This document shows positions 59,988-64,000 of a DNA stretch of 64,000 nucleotides, in pieces. The position numbers were made by a program, and so were the translations under genes. The notes under the pieces were generated by a model, which had not been told where the DNA came from, searched no databases, and saw only the letters and a list, made by a program, of their open reading frames with translations. Source of the DNA: Chryseobacterium sp. JUb7 (GTDB taxonomy: Bacteria; Bacteroidota; Bacteroidia; Flavobacteriales; Weeksellaceae); NCBI RefSeq assembly GCF_024806495.1, contig NZ_JANUFF010000003.1, positions 186,001-250,000 of the forward strand, read 5' to 3'. Every line of letters starts with the position of its first letter. The stretch's first letter is position 1.

Positions 59988-60608
59988 TTATTTTTTACGC
60001 GTGAACTTTATTTCCATAGTTTTAAATTCTTTTCCGGTTTTAGAATCTGGCCCGTACATTTCCAGTTTTTGGGTATTATCATCAACGAATGTGTAAATTT
60101 CTCTTACGTCACAATTTTTTCCGGGTCTTGCCGGATCGGTCATTTTTCCTTTAAACTCGATTGATTTTGTTGAACTATTCCATTCACCTTCCATATTCAT
60201 AATTCCCGTTCCCATATTGTCGATCCAGTTACTTATGAATTTCTTTTTGGCGTTGTCATAACCTGTAATGCTCATTCCTTCGAAAGGCATTCCCATGAAA
60301 TTTCCTTTGTGCTCACTTACCTGATAACGTCCTCCAAAAATTGTTTTATTGGTCACTTCCGAAGTGCTTGTCATTGGTTTTCCGCCGTTTTCCATCCACA
60401 TCGTGTTTTCGCCGGCCCATGCTCCGTCGGATTTCGCCAACATTTTGTGCATTTCTCCCGGAGTTGCAAAATCCATCCAAGCTTTAGTTGTGGTTGCAGA
60501 ATCTACGGGTTTCCACTCTTCGGATTTTGTTGTTTTTACATCCATTTTCACTTTATCGCAAGCTACCAACAGAAAAACAGTGCAAACTGCAAATAATAAA
60601 TTTTTCAT
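59988..60608 (-). CDS. DUF1579 lipoprotein
   Basis: 206 residues. Lipobox at FLLVAC; after a linker DFATPGEMHKMLAKSDGAWAGENTMW, FGGRYQVSEHKGNFMGMPFEGMSITGYDN and KFISNWIDNMGTGIM match the DUF1579 family (lipocalin-like beta barrel). Envelope-anchored. Function unknown. Divergent from the NrtR-type regulator gene. Confidence 0.85.
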   Translation of the reverse strand: MKNLLFAVCTVFLLVACDKVKMDVKTTKSEEWKPVDSATTTKAWMDFATPGEMHKMLAKSDGAWAGENTMWMENGGKPMTSTSEVTNKTIFGGRYQVSEHKGNFMGMPFEGMSITGYDNAKKKFISNWIDNMGTGIMNMEGEWNSSTKSIEFKGKMTDPARPGKNCDVREIYTFVDDNTQKLEMYGPDSKTGKEFKTMEIKFTRKK

Positions 60609-60675: not shown

Positions 60676-60724
60676 TTTGATATTGATGGTTCTAAAGCTT
60701 AACTTTGTGTATTCATAACGCAAA
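60676..60724 (+). promoter_or_regulatory. Promoter and operator of the NrtR-type regulator
   Basis: TTTG at 60676-60679, 20 bases, TAACTTTG at 60700-60707 as -33/-7. Overlapping the -7 is the inverted repeat TTTGTGT-N7-ACGCAAA at 60704-60724, also found upstream of NADAR and the coiled-coil gene. Binding there would block the promoter, so autoregulation is expected. Confidence 0.65.
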
Positions 60725-60732
60725 TTAATACA

Positions 60733-61428
60733 ATGGAGTCTCCAAAAAAATTACAGGATATAAAAGTTGCTGTAGACGCAGTTATTTTCGGCTATTTTGA
60801 TAAAAAAGATCTGCAGCTTTTGTTGATTCAAAGAAAAATTGAACCTTTCAAAGGAGGTTGGGCGCTTCCGGGTGGACTTGTTCTTGATGATGAAAATCTT
60901 GATGATGCTGTAAAAAGAGAACTGCACGAAGAAGCCGGCATAAAACCCGATTTTCTGGAACAACTCTATACTTTTGGGAACGTAGGTCGTGATCCGAGAA
61001 ACAGGGTTGTTTCGATAGCTTATTTGGGTCTTGTGAATCCGTCTTATCATGAGCTTTTTGCTGATTCCGATGCTGAGGATGCGCAATGGTTCAGCGTCAA
61101 TCAACTTCCGAAACTGGCTTTTGATCATCAAACAATTATTGATATTGCGTTAAAAAGACTTCGAACAAAAATCCAGTATCAGCCGATTGGCTTTAATCTT
61201 CTCAACGACGAATTTGCTTTTTCAGATTTAGAAAATTTATATAAAACGATTATCGGAAAAGAAATCGACCGCCGGAATTTCCGTAAAAAAATCATGAGCT
61301 ACGGATTGTTGAATGACACAAATACTTTAAAAAAAGAAGGCAGCGGCAGACCCGGCAAATTATTTACTTTCAATGAAGAAAAATATAAAGAATTGGAAGA
61401 ACAGGGCTTTTATTTTGAAATTAAATAG
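60733..61428 (+). CDS. NrtR-type regulator: Nudix domain plus winged helix
   Basis: 231 residues. Complete Nudix box G48-x5-E54-x7-REL-x-EE-x-GI (62-70), so pyrophosphatase activity may be retained. The C-terminal part from about 155 (NDEFAFSDLENLYKTIIGKEIDRRNFRKKIMSYGLL, GSGRPGKLFTF) is the winged-helix domain of the NrtR group, whose members sense ADP-ribose and control NAD metabolism (in Bacteroidota, also sugar genes). Four matching inverted repeats here, including one in its own promoter, indicate a local regulon with the NADAR gene and the genes behind it. Confidence 0.9.
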   Translation: MESPKKLQDIKVAVDAVIFGYFDKKDLQLLLIQRKIEPFKGGWALPGGLVLDDENLDDAVKRELHEEAGIKPDFLEQLYTFGNVGRDPRNRVVSIAYLGLVNPSYHELFADSDAEDAQWFSVNQLPKLAFDHQTIIDIALKRLRTKIQYQPIGFNLLNDEFAFSDLENLYKTIIGKEIDRRNFRKKIMSYGLLNDTNTLKKEGSGRPGKLFTFNEEKYKELEEQGFYFEIK

Positions 61429-61496
61429 TTTTATTAAAACAAATTTCGCGAGTTTTTTATAAATTTCTACCAATGGATTGCTTCTCCACTGCCATC

Positions 61497-61560
61497 CAAA
61501 ATGAAGTGAAGTGGAATGAAGAATCAATAAATTTAAGTTGAGATTCTTCCTGCTTCGTGA
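61497..61560. repeat. Degenerate inverted repeat of the GAATC type
   Basis: GAAGAATC at 61518-61525 and GATTCTTC at 61542-61549, with related outer arms (GAAGTGGAAT / CTGCTTC). Looks like two decayed intergenic elements in opposite orientation. The gap 61429-61766 otherwise holds only the operators and promoter listed next. Confidence 0.4.
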
Positions 61561-61690
61561 AAACAAAATTATATTTTCATCTAAATTTTAACAATAAATA
61601 TTTAAGTTCGTATCATTTGTAAAAAACATTTGAGCAATTGATATTTCAGGATAGTAATTTTAGTCACTGTAAATCAAAAGTTTGTAATAA

Positions 61691-61711
61691 TTAGTGTAAA
61701 ATTAACACAAA
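61691..61711. promoter_or_regulatory. NrtR-like operator, copy 2
   Basis: TTAGTGT-N7-ACACAAA, the most symmetrical copy of the repeat. It lies about 55 bases upstream of the NADAR ATG, before the -33 region. Confidence 0.65.
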
Positions 61712-61715
61712 TATA

Positions 61716-61765
61716 TTTGGATGATAAAACTATAATATTTTACATTTGTGTAATAATAACGCAAT
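61716..61765 (+). promoter_or_regulatory. Promoter and operator (copy 3) of NADAR
   Basis: TTTG at 61716-61719, 21 bases, TACATTTG at 61741-61748. The operator TTTGTGT-N7-ACGCAAT at 61745-61765 overlaps the -7 element exactly as in the regulator's own promoter and ends one base before the ATG at 61767. Confidence 0.65.
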
Positions 61766-61766
61766 C

Positions 61767-62309
61767 ATGAAATACACGATAGAAAATACCATTGCAAGAT
61801 TTCAGAAAAAAGAAAAGCTAGATTTTTTATTTTTCTGGGGACATACAATGAAAGATGAAATTACAAAGGCATGTTTCAGCCAGTGGTTTCCATTTGAGTT
61901 TAAAGAAGATGGAATAAGCTATAAAACTGCCGAGCATTATATGATGGCCGGAAAGGCTAAATTATTTAATGATAACGAAATTTTAGAACGAATTTTAATT
62001 GCAGAAACTCCCAACCAGGCAAAAAGTTTAGGAAGAAAAGTCAAAAACTTTGATCCTCAACGTTGGAATGAACATAAATATGAAATCGTAAAACAGGGAA
62101 ATCTGTTGAAGTTTTCACAACATGAAAAGTTTAGAGAATTTTTGCTTTCAACAAATAATAGAATTTTGATAGAAGCAAGTCCATACGATACAATTTGGGG
62201 AATCGGAATGTTGGAAACTGATCCAAGAGCAGAAGATCCATCGCAATGGAACGGAGAAAATCTGTTGGGATTTGCTTTGATGGAAGTTAGGGATGAATTA
62301 AGAGGGTAA
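61767..62309 (+). CDS. NADAR family protein
   Basis: 180 residues from MKYTIENTIARF; an upstream ATG at 61746 falls inside the operator and is rejected. Signature: FFWG (22-25), TAEHYMM (54-60), KAKLF (63-67), IEASPYDTIWGIG (135-147), NLLGFALM (165-172). Some characterised NADAR proteins remove ADP-ribose from guanine bases; others (YbiA type) act on riboflavin-pathway intermediates. The Nudix regulator next to it favours an ADP-ribose/NAD link. It leads a run of genes continuing to the window end. Confidence 0.92.
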   Translation: MKYTIENTIARFQKKEKLDFLFFWGHTMKDEITKACFSQWFPFEFKEDGISYKTAEHYMMAGKAKLFNDNEILERILIAETPNQAKSLGRKVKNFDPQRWNEHKYEIVKQGNLLKFSQHEKFREFLLSTNNRILIEASPYDTIWGIGMLETDPRAEDPSQWNGENLLGFALMEVRDELRG

Positions 62310-62411
62310 AAACACAAGACCAAACACAAAATATTAATATTAAAAAGAATCTTAGCTAATCTTTATTATTGAAATTCGAAAAGAATCAAAGCAAAACCAT
62401 GCAGTTTTTAA

Positions 62412-62432
62412 TTAGCGTAAAAACAACACAAA
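62412..62432. promoter_or_regulatory. NrtR-like operator, copy 4
   Basis: TTAGCGT-N7-ACACAAA, 13 bases before the ATG at 62445. A second regulated promoter for the downstream genes is likely, though no TAnnTTTG was found there. Confidence 0.55.
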
Positions 62433-62444
62433 TAAAAATGAATT

Positions 62445-62780
62445 ATGGAAGAAGACTTAAAACCCAGATTCATCGAGTCGTTACAAAGAAATAATGACCA
62501 GATAAGAGAAGACCGTGCCCGAATTATCGGAGAAGATGCAGAGCTGATTTACAAGCGGAGAGTAGAAGATATCGAACTGAAAATCAAAAGACTGGAAAGA
62601 GAGCAGGAAGGCTTGATCGACATCAGTCCTTTAGACAAAAACAGTTTGACATTCGCTGATTTTCAGCCGGAAGCATTCGTTCAGAGAGACATTGAATTAT
62701 CATTAATCATCAGAAATTTAAATATTCAATTGGAATTAACAAGAACAAGATTCGAATATTTATTTGGTAAAAAATTTTAA
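62445..62780 (+). CDS. Small coiled-coil protein of unknown function
   Basis: 111 residues, rich in Glu, Arg, Leu and Ile; residues 1-55 and 80-108 look like long amphipathic helices (IELKIKRLEREQEGLIDI). No signal peptide or membrane segment. Preceded by an operator copy and followed three bases later by the VWA gene, so part of the regulon. Possibly an adaptor for the VWA protein. Confidence 0.7.
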   Translation: MEEDLKPRFIESLQRNNDQIREDRARIIGEDAELIYKRRVEDIELKIKRLEREQEGLIDISPLDKNSLTFADFQPEAFVQRDIELSLIIRNLNIQLELTRTRFEYLFGKKF

Positions 62781-62783
62781 GTT

Positions 62784-63638
62784 ATGGGAGGTACAAGATA
62801 CGACATGGACGCTCGTTTTGACAGAGCAAAGAAAGCAGGATATGCATCAAAATCTGCAAGTGAAATTTTCACTCAGAATGCAAAAAGAAAGGCACATGAA
62901 TCTATGAATCCACATGGTATTTCTTTCAGAGAATCAAGAGATTCTGCGGTTCATCCAAATTCAGTTCCTATTATTTTAGGACTGGACGTAACGGGAAGTA
63001 TGGGACATATTCCTTATGATTTGATTAAAGAAGGTCTTCCAAAATTAATGGGCGGAATTATCCAGGGTGGTGTTCCGGATCCGGCACTTTTATTCTTGGG
63101 AATCGGAGATCATGAATGTGACGGTTATCCTTTACAGGTTGGTCAGTTTGAATCGGGAGATGAAGAGCTTGATATGTGGTTAACAAGAACTTACATAGAG
63201 TCCGGGGGTGGAGGAAATGCAGGAGAAAGTTATTTATTGGCTTGGTATTTTGCGGCTTTTCACACAAGAACAGATGCTTTTGAAAAGAGAAACCAAAAAG
63301 GATTATTGTTCACTGTTGGTGACGAACCTTGTTTGAAAACACTTCCTGCTTCTGCGATCCGAGAATTAATGGGAACGGGTCAACAGACTTTCAAACATAC
63401 GGAACTGTTGGCGGAAGCTCAGAAGAAATATGAAGTTTTTCACATCAGCGTTTTGCATTCCGGACAAGCGGTGAATGCAGATAAAGGCTGGAAAGATTTA
63501 CTAGGACAAAACTGTTTATCTATCGAGGATTACAGAGATGTTCCGAAAGTGATTAAAGATGTGGTTTGTAGTAAATTTAAAGATAGCTTTACGAAAACCA
63601 CAGAGAATTTAGGATTAGATAATATTCAAATGTATTAA
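62784..63638 (+). CDS. VWA-like cytosolic protein
   Basis: 284 residues, no signal peptide. MIDAS-type metal site DVTGSMG (Asp68-x-Thr70-x-Ser72, a Thr variant of DxSxS), GIGDHE, GGGGNAGESYLLAWYFAAFHT and LLFTVGDEP (Asp180). VWA proteins of this type bind partners through a metal ion, often next to ATPases or nucleotide enzymes. The N-terminal 45 residues (YASKSASEIFTQNAKRKAHE) are helical. Two bases separate it from the PurA-like gene. Function unknown. Confidence 0.82.
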   Translation: MGGTRYDMDARFDRAKKAGYASKSASEIFTQNAKRKAHESMNPHGISFRESRDSAVHPNSVPIILGLDVTGSMGHIPYDLIKEGLPKLMGGIIQGGVPDPALLFLGIGDHECDGYPLQVGQFESGDEELDMWLTRTYIESGGGGNAGESYLLAWYFAAFHTRTDAFEKRNQKGLLFTVGDEPCLKTLPASAIRELMGTGQQTFKHTELLAEAQKKYEVFHISVLHSGQAVNADKGWKDLLGQNCLSIEDYRDVPKVIKDVVCSKFKDSFTKTTENLGLDNIQMY

Positions 63639-63640
63639 AA

Positions 63641-64000
63641 ATGAAAACAGCACAAATAATTATAGGCTTGGGATTTGGGGATGAAGGTAAAGGCATCACA
63701 ACCGATTTTCTGGCTCAGCAACATCCTGAGTCTGTAGTTATTCGGTTTTCAGGAGGTCAGCAGGCGGCGCATACGGTGATAATTGATGATAAAAAGCACG
63801 TTCATTCCAGCTTTGCGAGTGGTGCGCTGCGTGGTTTGCCTTCGTATTTTACAGAACATTGCACGATTCACCCGACGTTTTTATTCAACGAAAGGGAAGA
63901 ATTAATTCAGAAAAATGGAAATATTGAATTGACAATCCATCCTTTGGCAAAAGTAACGACACCTTTTGATGTTTTATATAACAGAAAAAATATCAAAAAT
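63641..64000 (+). CDS. Divergent adenylosuccinate synthetase-like protein, cut by window end
   Basis: First 120 residues only. N-terminal GTP loop GFGDEGKG (11-18, catalytic Asp14) and SGGQQAAHTV (catalytic His44), then SSFASGALRG, as in PurA, but the usual WGDEGKGK and NAGHT are altered and the N-terminus (MKTAQIIIGLG) differs. Position in a NADAR/VWA operon suggests a specialised nucleotide-condensing enzyme rather than the housekeeping purine enzyme; not provable from this fragment. Confidence 0.78.
   Translation, partial: MKTAQIIIGLGFGDEGKGITTDFLAQQHPESVVIRFSGGQQAAHTVIIDDKKHVHSSFASGALRGLPSYFTEHCTIHPTFLFNEREELIQKNGNIELTIHPLAKVTTPFDVLYNRKNIKN

Follow-up and report, generated by a model that had tools for sequence, protein, structure and literature searches.

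Palindromic sites in a Chryseobacterium genome as probable operators of an NrtR-type repressor of ADP-ribose-processing and NAD-salvage genes

Introduction

NrtR regulons of nicotinamide adenine dinucleotide (NAD) metabolism are said to have been described by Rodionov in 2008. In Shewanella, Mycobacterium and Streptococcus, regulons of this kind are held by a repressor in which a Nudix domain is joined to a winged helix and which controls its own gene (PMC6800001, PMC12735969, PMC3223726). The sites described in this paper lie beside a gene for a protein of the same architecture, nrtR, in a window of 64,000 nucleotides from Chryseobacterium sp. JUb7 (contig NZ_JANUFF010000003.1, positions 186,001 to 250,000 of the forward strand; the positions given below are counted from the first letter of this stretch). 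There are four of them, each a palindrome of the form TTWGYGT-N7-ACRCAAW. They are very probably operators of the adjacent NrtR, which would repress its own gene and hold down both NAD salvage and a hypervariable run of genes for ADP-ribose (adenosine diphosphate ribose) removal, probably until ADP-ribose releases it.

The palindrome has an N7 centre like that of MsNrtR, and NAD genes including pncB are among the targets, as they are for SsNrtR. Both of these proteins differ from the present one in their impaired Nudix motifs, for which no activity was detected; NuhA, whose motif is intact as it is here, is active (PMC6800001, PMC12735969). The known NrtR regulons differ further in that the operators described here, several in number, also precede a long run of ADP-ribose-processing genes. 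Another relative is BtAraR of Bacteroides, which provides the closest solved structure (5bs6), has tandem sites and shares the same GTGT-N7-ACAC core, found in the DNA of its crystal; unlike what is proposed here, BtAraR responds to arabinose, has an impaired Nudix box and acts on sugar genes (PMC4666351).

The second group of related systems comprises the conflict systems centred on ADP-ribosylglycohydrolase (ARG), which carry Nudix or WYL regulators and for which induction by ADP-ribose was predicted in 2022 (PMC9503650). As in these systems, the Nudix regulator here stands beside genes for ADP-ribosylglycohydrolase, vWA, calcineurin-like phosphatase, Macro and NADAR proteins. The run contains two ADP-ribosylglycohydrolases (PF03747) and one phosphatase (PF00149); the vWA-type chaperone, a frequent and not constant component of ARG-centred systems, is represented by a predicted fold, and its chaperone role is putative. 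ARG-centred systems were sought without coupled ADP-ribosyltransferases (ARTs) or sirtuins, and in this respect the present locus differs, as Sir2 and KptA genes are part of its run. The same paper describes NADAR genes of phages in the neighbourhood of the salvage genes NadM/NadV. Its section 3.8 mentions neither operators nor co-targets in NAD salvage, and takes its examples from actinobacteria, planctomycetes and diverse proteobacteria; its main text has no mention of pncB, NAMPT, operator or Bacteroid.

Among the papers listed by searches of the open-licence PMC literature, PMC9503650 alone combines NADAR and NrtR, and none could be recognised that puts genes for NADAR or for ADP-ribosyl-hydrolases under NrtR operators that had been mapped; Rodionov 2008 lies outside that scope and could include part of this. 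NrtR control of NAD genes and Nudix-regulated ARG operons are already known, the latter as a prediction (PMC9503650). What appears new is the mapping of the operators and the inclusion of pncB, or of genes for phosphoribosyl-pyrophosphate (PRPP) synthetase and NAMPT, in one regulon, and the near-fixed spacing of paired sites and the exchange of gene modules behind fixed operators add to this.

Occurrence of the sites

All four sites match the motif without a mismatch, at 60704-60724 (operator A), 61691-61711 (B1), 61745-61765 (B2) and 62412-62432 (C), as claimed in a preliminary description of this DNA, which had noted four matching inverted repeats. The window holds five exact strand-hits, every one at these four places, and 100 shuffles of the window that preserved its dinucleotides gave none. 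At a tolerance of up to two mismatches the strand-hits number 14, with 7.3 expected, and six of the 14 lie outside the four places. Operator A begins 29 bp 5' of the nrtR ATG (60733), a single base separates B2 from the ATG of the NADAR gene (61767), and 12 bases separate C from the ATG (62445) of a gene that had been labelled coiled-coil. The preliminary description had assigned one site to the NrtR-type gene, two to NADAR and one to the coiled-coil gene.

The whole genome (4.95 Mb in 33 contigs) was scanned for the motif with the reversed pattern as a control. There are five exact loci, namely the four sites of the window and an unlinked one at G000:C5:256579-256599, and the control has no exact match in the same genome. 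A scan with the 21-position matrix, which had been proposed as a check, places the same five loci on top (E 0.003-0.19), the best place beyond them having an E of about 5. When one mismatch is allowed, 27 strand-hits are found against 24 for the reversed pattern; as ten of the 27 belong to the five true sites, the remaining 17 represent no excess. One such one-mismatch place, C1:615141, was rejected as it lies within a coding sequence.

The fifth exact site is one base away from the ATG of a 392-residue PncB, identified as nicotinate phosphoribosyltransferase by Pfam and NCBIfam. The regulon suggested in the preliminary description is supported, but it is not merely local. PncB was found in 98 of 98 genomes of the genus, and 65 of the upstream regions were inspected. 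The site was found in 57 of them, 21-23 bp 5' of the start in the 48 regions with a located start and by score alone in nine more. Beyond the locus, the regulon extends to pncB here and to PRPP-synthetase-like and NAMPT genes in other families.

Comparison of orthologous upstream regions, another of the proposed checks, gave a consistent result. In 80 relatives, the kept set of 122 confirmed ones (regulator identity 88-97%), an exact site precedes nrtR in every case. The NADAR pair, with at most one mismatch, is present in 78 of the 80, its members being 54 bp apart in 68, 53 bp in seven and 55 bp in three; the two relatives without it are L094 and L035, the contig of which stops about 270 bp past nrtR. 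Sites 3' of the NADAR pair were counted 69 times. In 20 genomes of the genus, there are 107 exact strand-hits as opposed to four for the control.

The distribution over 120 genomes of the family shows which protein the sites accompany. In the 18 genomes with an orthologue of the regulator (a match at E 1e-60 or better) there are 93 exact strand-hits against two for the reversed pattern, and in the 102 without it 33 against 40 (all summed by hand). The NrtR_WHD domain occurs in 83 of the 120 genomes, so that 65 of the 102 orthologue-free genomes carry paralogues only. Across the family, the sites track the NrtR orthologue and not its paralogues. A few of the 93 hits are found elsewhere than at the known targets. 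Extra exact matches in G016:C17 and G203:C2 fall inside coding sequences and were set aside.

Operators and promoters at the locus

The elements and genes at this end of the window are the following, all on the plus strand:

60676..60707, nrtR promoter: TTTG at 60676-60679, 20-bp spacer, -7 box TAACTTTG at 60700-60707
60704..60724, operator A, TTTGTGT-N7-ACGCAAA: exact, shares bases with the nrtR -7 box
60733..61428, nrtR, 231 residues: Nudix domain with an intact GX5EX7REUXEEXGU box, and NrtR winged helix
61691..61711, operator B1 (TTAG class): exact, just 5' of the NADAR -33 box
61716..61748, NADAR promoter: TTTG at 61716-61719, 21-bp spacer, -7 box TACATTTG at 61741-61748
61745..61765, operator B2 (TTTG class): exact, overlaps the NADAR -7 box
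61767..62309, NADAR-domain protein, 180 residues: Pfam PF08719, 195 bits
62412..62432, operator C (TTAG class): exact, internal, before the coiled-coil/vWA pair
62445..62780, 111-residue protein (the coiled-coil protein of the preliminary description): no Pfam match
62784..63638, vWA-fold protein, 284 residues: invariant DVTGSMG, fold from predicted structure
63641..64000 and past the window end, adenylosuccinate-synthetase-like protein, 356 residues: Pfam PF00709, full open reading frame (ORF) in L008

Two of the copies had been described as sharing bases with a TAnnTTTG -7 element, and this is indeed the case for A and B2. In the promoter-proximal operators the initial TTTG is the TTTG end of the -7 box. 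The overlap is present at nrtR in 80 of 80 relatives, at NADAR in 78 of 78 and at 55 of the 57 pncB sites as scored; of the two pncB sites for which no box was scored, one probably reflects the choice of strand on a near-palindrome. A TTTG 19-21 bp 5' of the NADAR -7 box was counted 77 times among the 78 relatives. Operators B1 and C begin with TTAG, and neither overlaps a TAnnTTTG box. Since the upstream member of the pair starts with TTAG in 76 of 78 relatives and the internal site does so in 60 of 68, the T/A ambiguity of the motif mostly separates promoter-blocking from auxiliary sites in the genus-level group.

The regulon at the level of the order

A regulator match at E 1e-50 or better was found in 80 of 296 genomes of the order. 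Twenty loci from outside the family were fetched, in which the regulator is 55-64% identical (18 loci) or 44-46% identical (two loci); the remaining matches of 39-46% were left out. A pair of sites 51-55 bp apart, with a matrix score of at least 11, is present in all 18 loci of 55-64% identity. The -7 box is overlapped in 15 of 17 pairs read forward and, in reverse, in L211; the upstream member starts with TTTG in 13 of 17. The first gene behind the pair is PRPP-synthetase-like in 14 loci, NAMPT (NadV) in three and band-7-like in one, as assigned by Pfam on L214 and L209 (both salvage types) and L210 (NadV) and by matching N-termini for the others. ADP-ribose-type genes (NADAR, DraG, PARG, macro, KptA and others) come after it in at least 11 of the 18.

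In G165 (regulator identity about 50%) pairs of sites precede a vWA gene (57 bp) and, in a weaker form, nrtR-NADAR (53 bp), and a single site precedes a macro gene. In G146 (69%) a site precedes nrtR, and a pair with a weak upstream member precedes genes for a TonB receptor and for a NadR-like protein of the nucleotidyltransferase-AAA type.

The virus records of IMG/VR gave 19 stretches with the pattern of a single site plus ATG, all of which were scored with the matrix; one of them, L241, holds a pair 52 bp apart, and the other 18 look like chance or lack an explanation. The TTTG-TTTG pair pattern matched only the L241 record, IMGVR_UViG_3300031867_010011, and the TTAG-TTTG pair pattern had no match in IMG/VR. 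The pair precedes an NrtR homologue (42% identity over 185 residues, Nudix box intact by reading), and the ORF after this homologue matches vWA below the threshold. The same record (L253, L254) contains an ORF that reads like a DnaB helicase and a pair of membrane proteins that looks Zorya-like, with no such family match. The record possibly represents a mobile region of a bacterial genome and not a phage.

The regulator and its signal

The domains of the protein (Pfam NUDIX, 75.3 bits with a cut-off of 21.1; NrtR_WHD, 77.2 bits with a cut-off of 27) place it in the NrtR family. It aligns with the solved NrtR 3gz5 over residues 4-214 (E 3.4e-34), 5bs6 (AraR) and 3gz5 being its nearest solved relatives by sequence, and palindromes of the kind expected for family operators precede nrtR in 80 of 80 relatives and pncB in 57 of the 65 regions inspected.

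The strict Nudix box is intact in all 80 genus-level orthologues and in G146. Among the order-level regulators the RE..EE residues are kept in 18 of 18, the final G being replaced by N in ten. The box is impaired in G165, in the two homologues of 44-46% identity and in all four paralogues of the genome under study. The intact box suggests that the regulator may hydrolyse ADP-ribose, its own putative inducer. Judging from the behaviour of the family and from the set of targets, the inducer is probably ADP-ribose.

Alternative explanations

The genome contains five NrtR_WHD genes, and the DNA in the AraR crystal has the same core (PMC4666351). The sites might thus belong to other NrtR/AraR-type paralogues, that is to sugar regulators, or to several proteins sharing the GTGT-N7-ACAC core. 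This is very unlikely, as no exact or one-mismatch site was found at the loci of the four paralogues, each of about 3.2 kb, where a single two-mismatch match, in L015, was seen; the 65 family genomes with paralogues and without the orthologue fall in the chance-level group; and the two order-level homologues of 44-46% identity, which lie beside transporter genes, have no site of at least 11 bits. It is hardly credible that the palindromes owe their conservation to a role as promoter or RNA elements and are not protein operators. Two of the four do overlap -7 boxes, but the palindrome reaches well beyond the box, the TTAG-class sites overlap no box at all, and genomes without the orthologue have matches at chance level only. 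Moreover, the eight relatives without a pncB palindrome still show TAnnTTTG (three) or TAnnTTTA (five) at that place, as judged by eye. A less remote, though still rather unlikely, alternative is that the regulator is the right one and the signal is NAD, a cyclic or phosphorylated form of ADP-ribose, or some other product of NAD-based immunity. NdnR of Corynebacterium answers to NAD (PMC4666351, PMC6800001), and the targets here span several ADP-ribose-related enzyme families; on the other hand, ADP-ribose frees several NrtR proteins from DNA (PMC4666351, PMC6800001, PMC12735969), and the Nudix box is in keeping with an active hydrolase.

Several observations do not sit easily with operators of an ADP-ribose-responsive NrtR. 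The protein scores 143.6 bits with the NCBIfam model of the ADP-ribose-responsive repressor (NF050029), which has a cut-off of 400; it is of the same family and is not this equivalog. Of the solved structures, that of AraR, an arabinose regulator, is closest to it, and not that of the NAD regulator, so that the ligand could differ, and the ADP-ribose level printed as releasing MsNrtR is 50 mM (PMC6800001). G165 has sites and an impaired Nudix box, so hydrolysis would not be needed for the circuit. At pncB, eight of the 65 regions have no site and at least three of these genomes (G071, G008 and G011) keep the operon sites; control of pncB is thus common and not universal. A further exact match, at a distance from the target genes, is common to G086, G190 and G203, and in G203 it is inside a coding sequence. 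In 50 of 80 relatives the nrtR promoter has no TTTG in the 30 bp 5' of the -7 box, and operator C in the present genome has no recognisable promoter (no TAnnTTTG box). Finally, the NCBIfam name of the NADAR protein is riboflavin-intermediate N-glycosidase (TIGR02464, 186 bits), and its substrate may for this reason not be an ADP-ribose adduct.

A possible course of repression and release

If the sites are operators of the adjacent NrtR, the following course of events can be proposed. NrtR would repress its own gene, the co-directional run of ADP-ribose-processing genes from NADAR onwards (a presumed operon) and the unlinked NAD-salvage gene pncB. The block would be direct at nrtR, NADAR and pncB, where a bound operator would cover the -7 box and the presumed transcription start. 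At NADAR two dimers probably cooperate, since operator B1 lies 54 bp, or about five turns of DNA, upstream of B2 and immediately past the -33 box. Operator C, inside the run, probably contributes either a roadblock or a loop. The inducer, probably ADP-ribose freed by NAD breakage or by removal of ADP-ribosylation, would in that case bring up the resynthesis of NAD along with the enzymes that remove the tags. By hydrolysing ADP-ribose the regulator would reset itself.

Such a circuit can be read as joint refilling of NAD and removal of ADP-ribose adducts, either as housekeeping or under attack. A more specific version is tentative and has somewhat less than an even chance of being correct: the circuit might be a self-resetting alarm, in which an active Nudix repressor senses ADP-ribose arising from toxin or phage attack or from NAD-consuming immunity, frees NAD resynthesis and a set of exchangeable erasers and then destroys the signal. 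As gene modules are swapped behind fixed operators, new erasers would be under control on arrival.

The sites would provide precise operators for ADP-ribose-processing operons, a class in which control had been predicted from gene neighbours, and would link these operons to the supply of NAD in a common group of bacteria. If the proposal is true, damage control after ADP-ribosylation and the refilling of NAD are one response to one signal, and the operator is a search tool for new members, which already points at band-7, FRG-domain and 111-residue/vWA genes.

Genes behind the operators

Beyond the adenylosuccinate-synthetase-like gene the run continues in the same direction with genes for macro, PARG-type and DUF4291 proteins, two ADP-ribosylglycohydrolases (PF03747), Sir2 (PF02146), KptA (PF01885) and a phosphoesterase (PF00149). 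The content behind the operators varies among the relatives: NADAR, p152 (a 135-residue protein of the run), the 111-residue/vWA/adenylosuccinate-synthetase-like genes, macro, PARG-type, DUF4291, DraG, Sir2, KptA and phosphoesterase genes come and go, although the relatives' loci end at 8 kb and absence of a gene there can reflect length. The NADAR module can also lie with its pair of sites away from nrtR, by 42 kb in G009 and by 66 kb in G183, and in G207 a pair is about 29 kb from nrtR.

The 284-residue vWA protein has no Pfam family match and no PDB sequence match. Its alignment-based model (mean predicted local distance difference test, pLDDT, of 64) was used in place of a single-sequence model (pLDDT 33), and the predicted fold is that of vWA and integrin I domains, with a Foldseek probability of 1.00. 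The DVTGSMG motif is invariant among seven sequences. In 102 loci the 111-residue gene is always found with the vWA gene (54 of 54 occurrences), which in turn is accompanied by the adenylosuccinate-synthetase-like gene in 57 of 58. In four order-level loci (L214, L215, L218 and L225) these three proteins have identities of about 85, 80 and 71%, exceeding the 56-57% or so of NrtR, which suggests that the module has been exchanged laterally.

The NADAR protein (61767-62309) matches the PADLOC candidate defence model PDC-M42C. A 157-residue macro-like protein of the run (L008:7261-7734) scores 21.5 against a Pfam Macro cut-off of 22 and has a weak match to DarG models. Protein p152 (L008:6851-7258) has no match in Pfam, NCBIfam or PADLOC, and a PDB sequence search gave matches only at E 0.2 or worse.

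In G015 (L146:2158-2995) an FRG-domain gene (PF08867) has an operator over a TATATTTG box just 5' of its start. Frg is counted among the ART clades (PMC9503650), and the gene is possibly a captured effector resembling an ADP-ribosyltransferase; its position under an operator fits a conflict role, but this is a single case. In three genomes (L189:2107-3108, L148:3051-4055 and L219:2661-3674) a band-7/SPFH-type gene, so assigned by Pfam on L189 alone, stands directly behind an operator and is followed by a gene for a protein of about 300 residues of no assigned family. On the other side of nrtR, a DUF1579 gene (59988-60608) is divergent from it and starts 95 bp from operator A; by eye, roughly three in four of the 80 relatives have such a gene 5' of nrtR.

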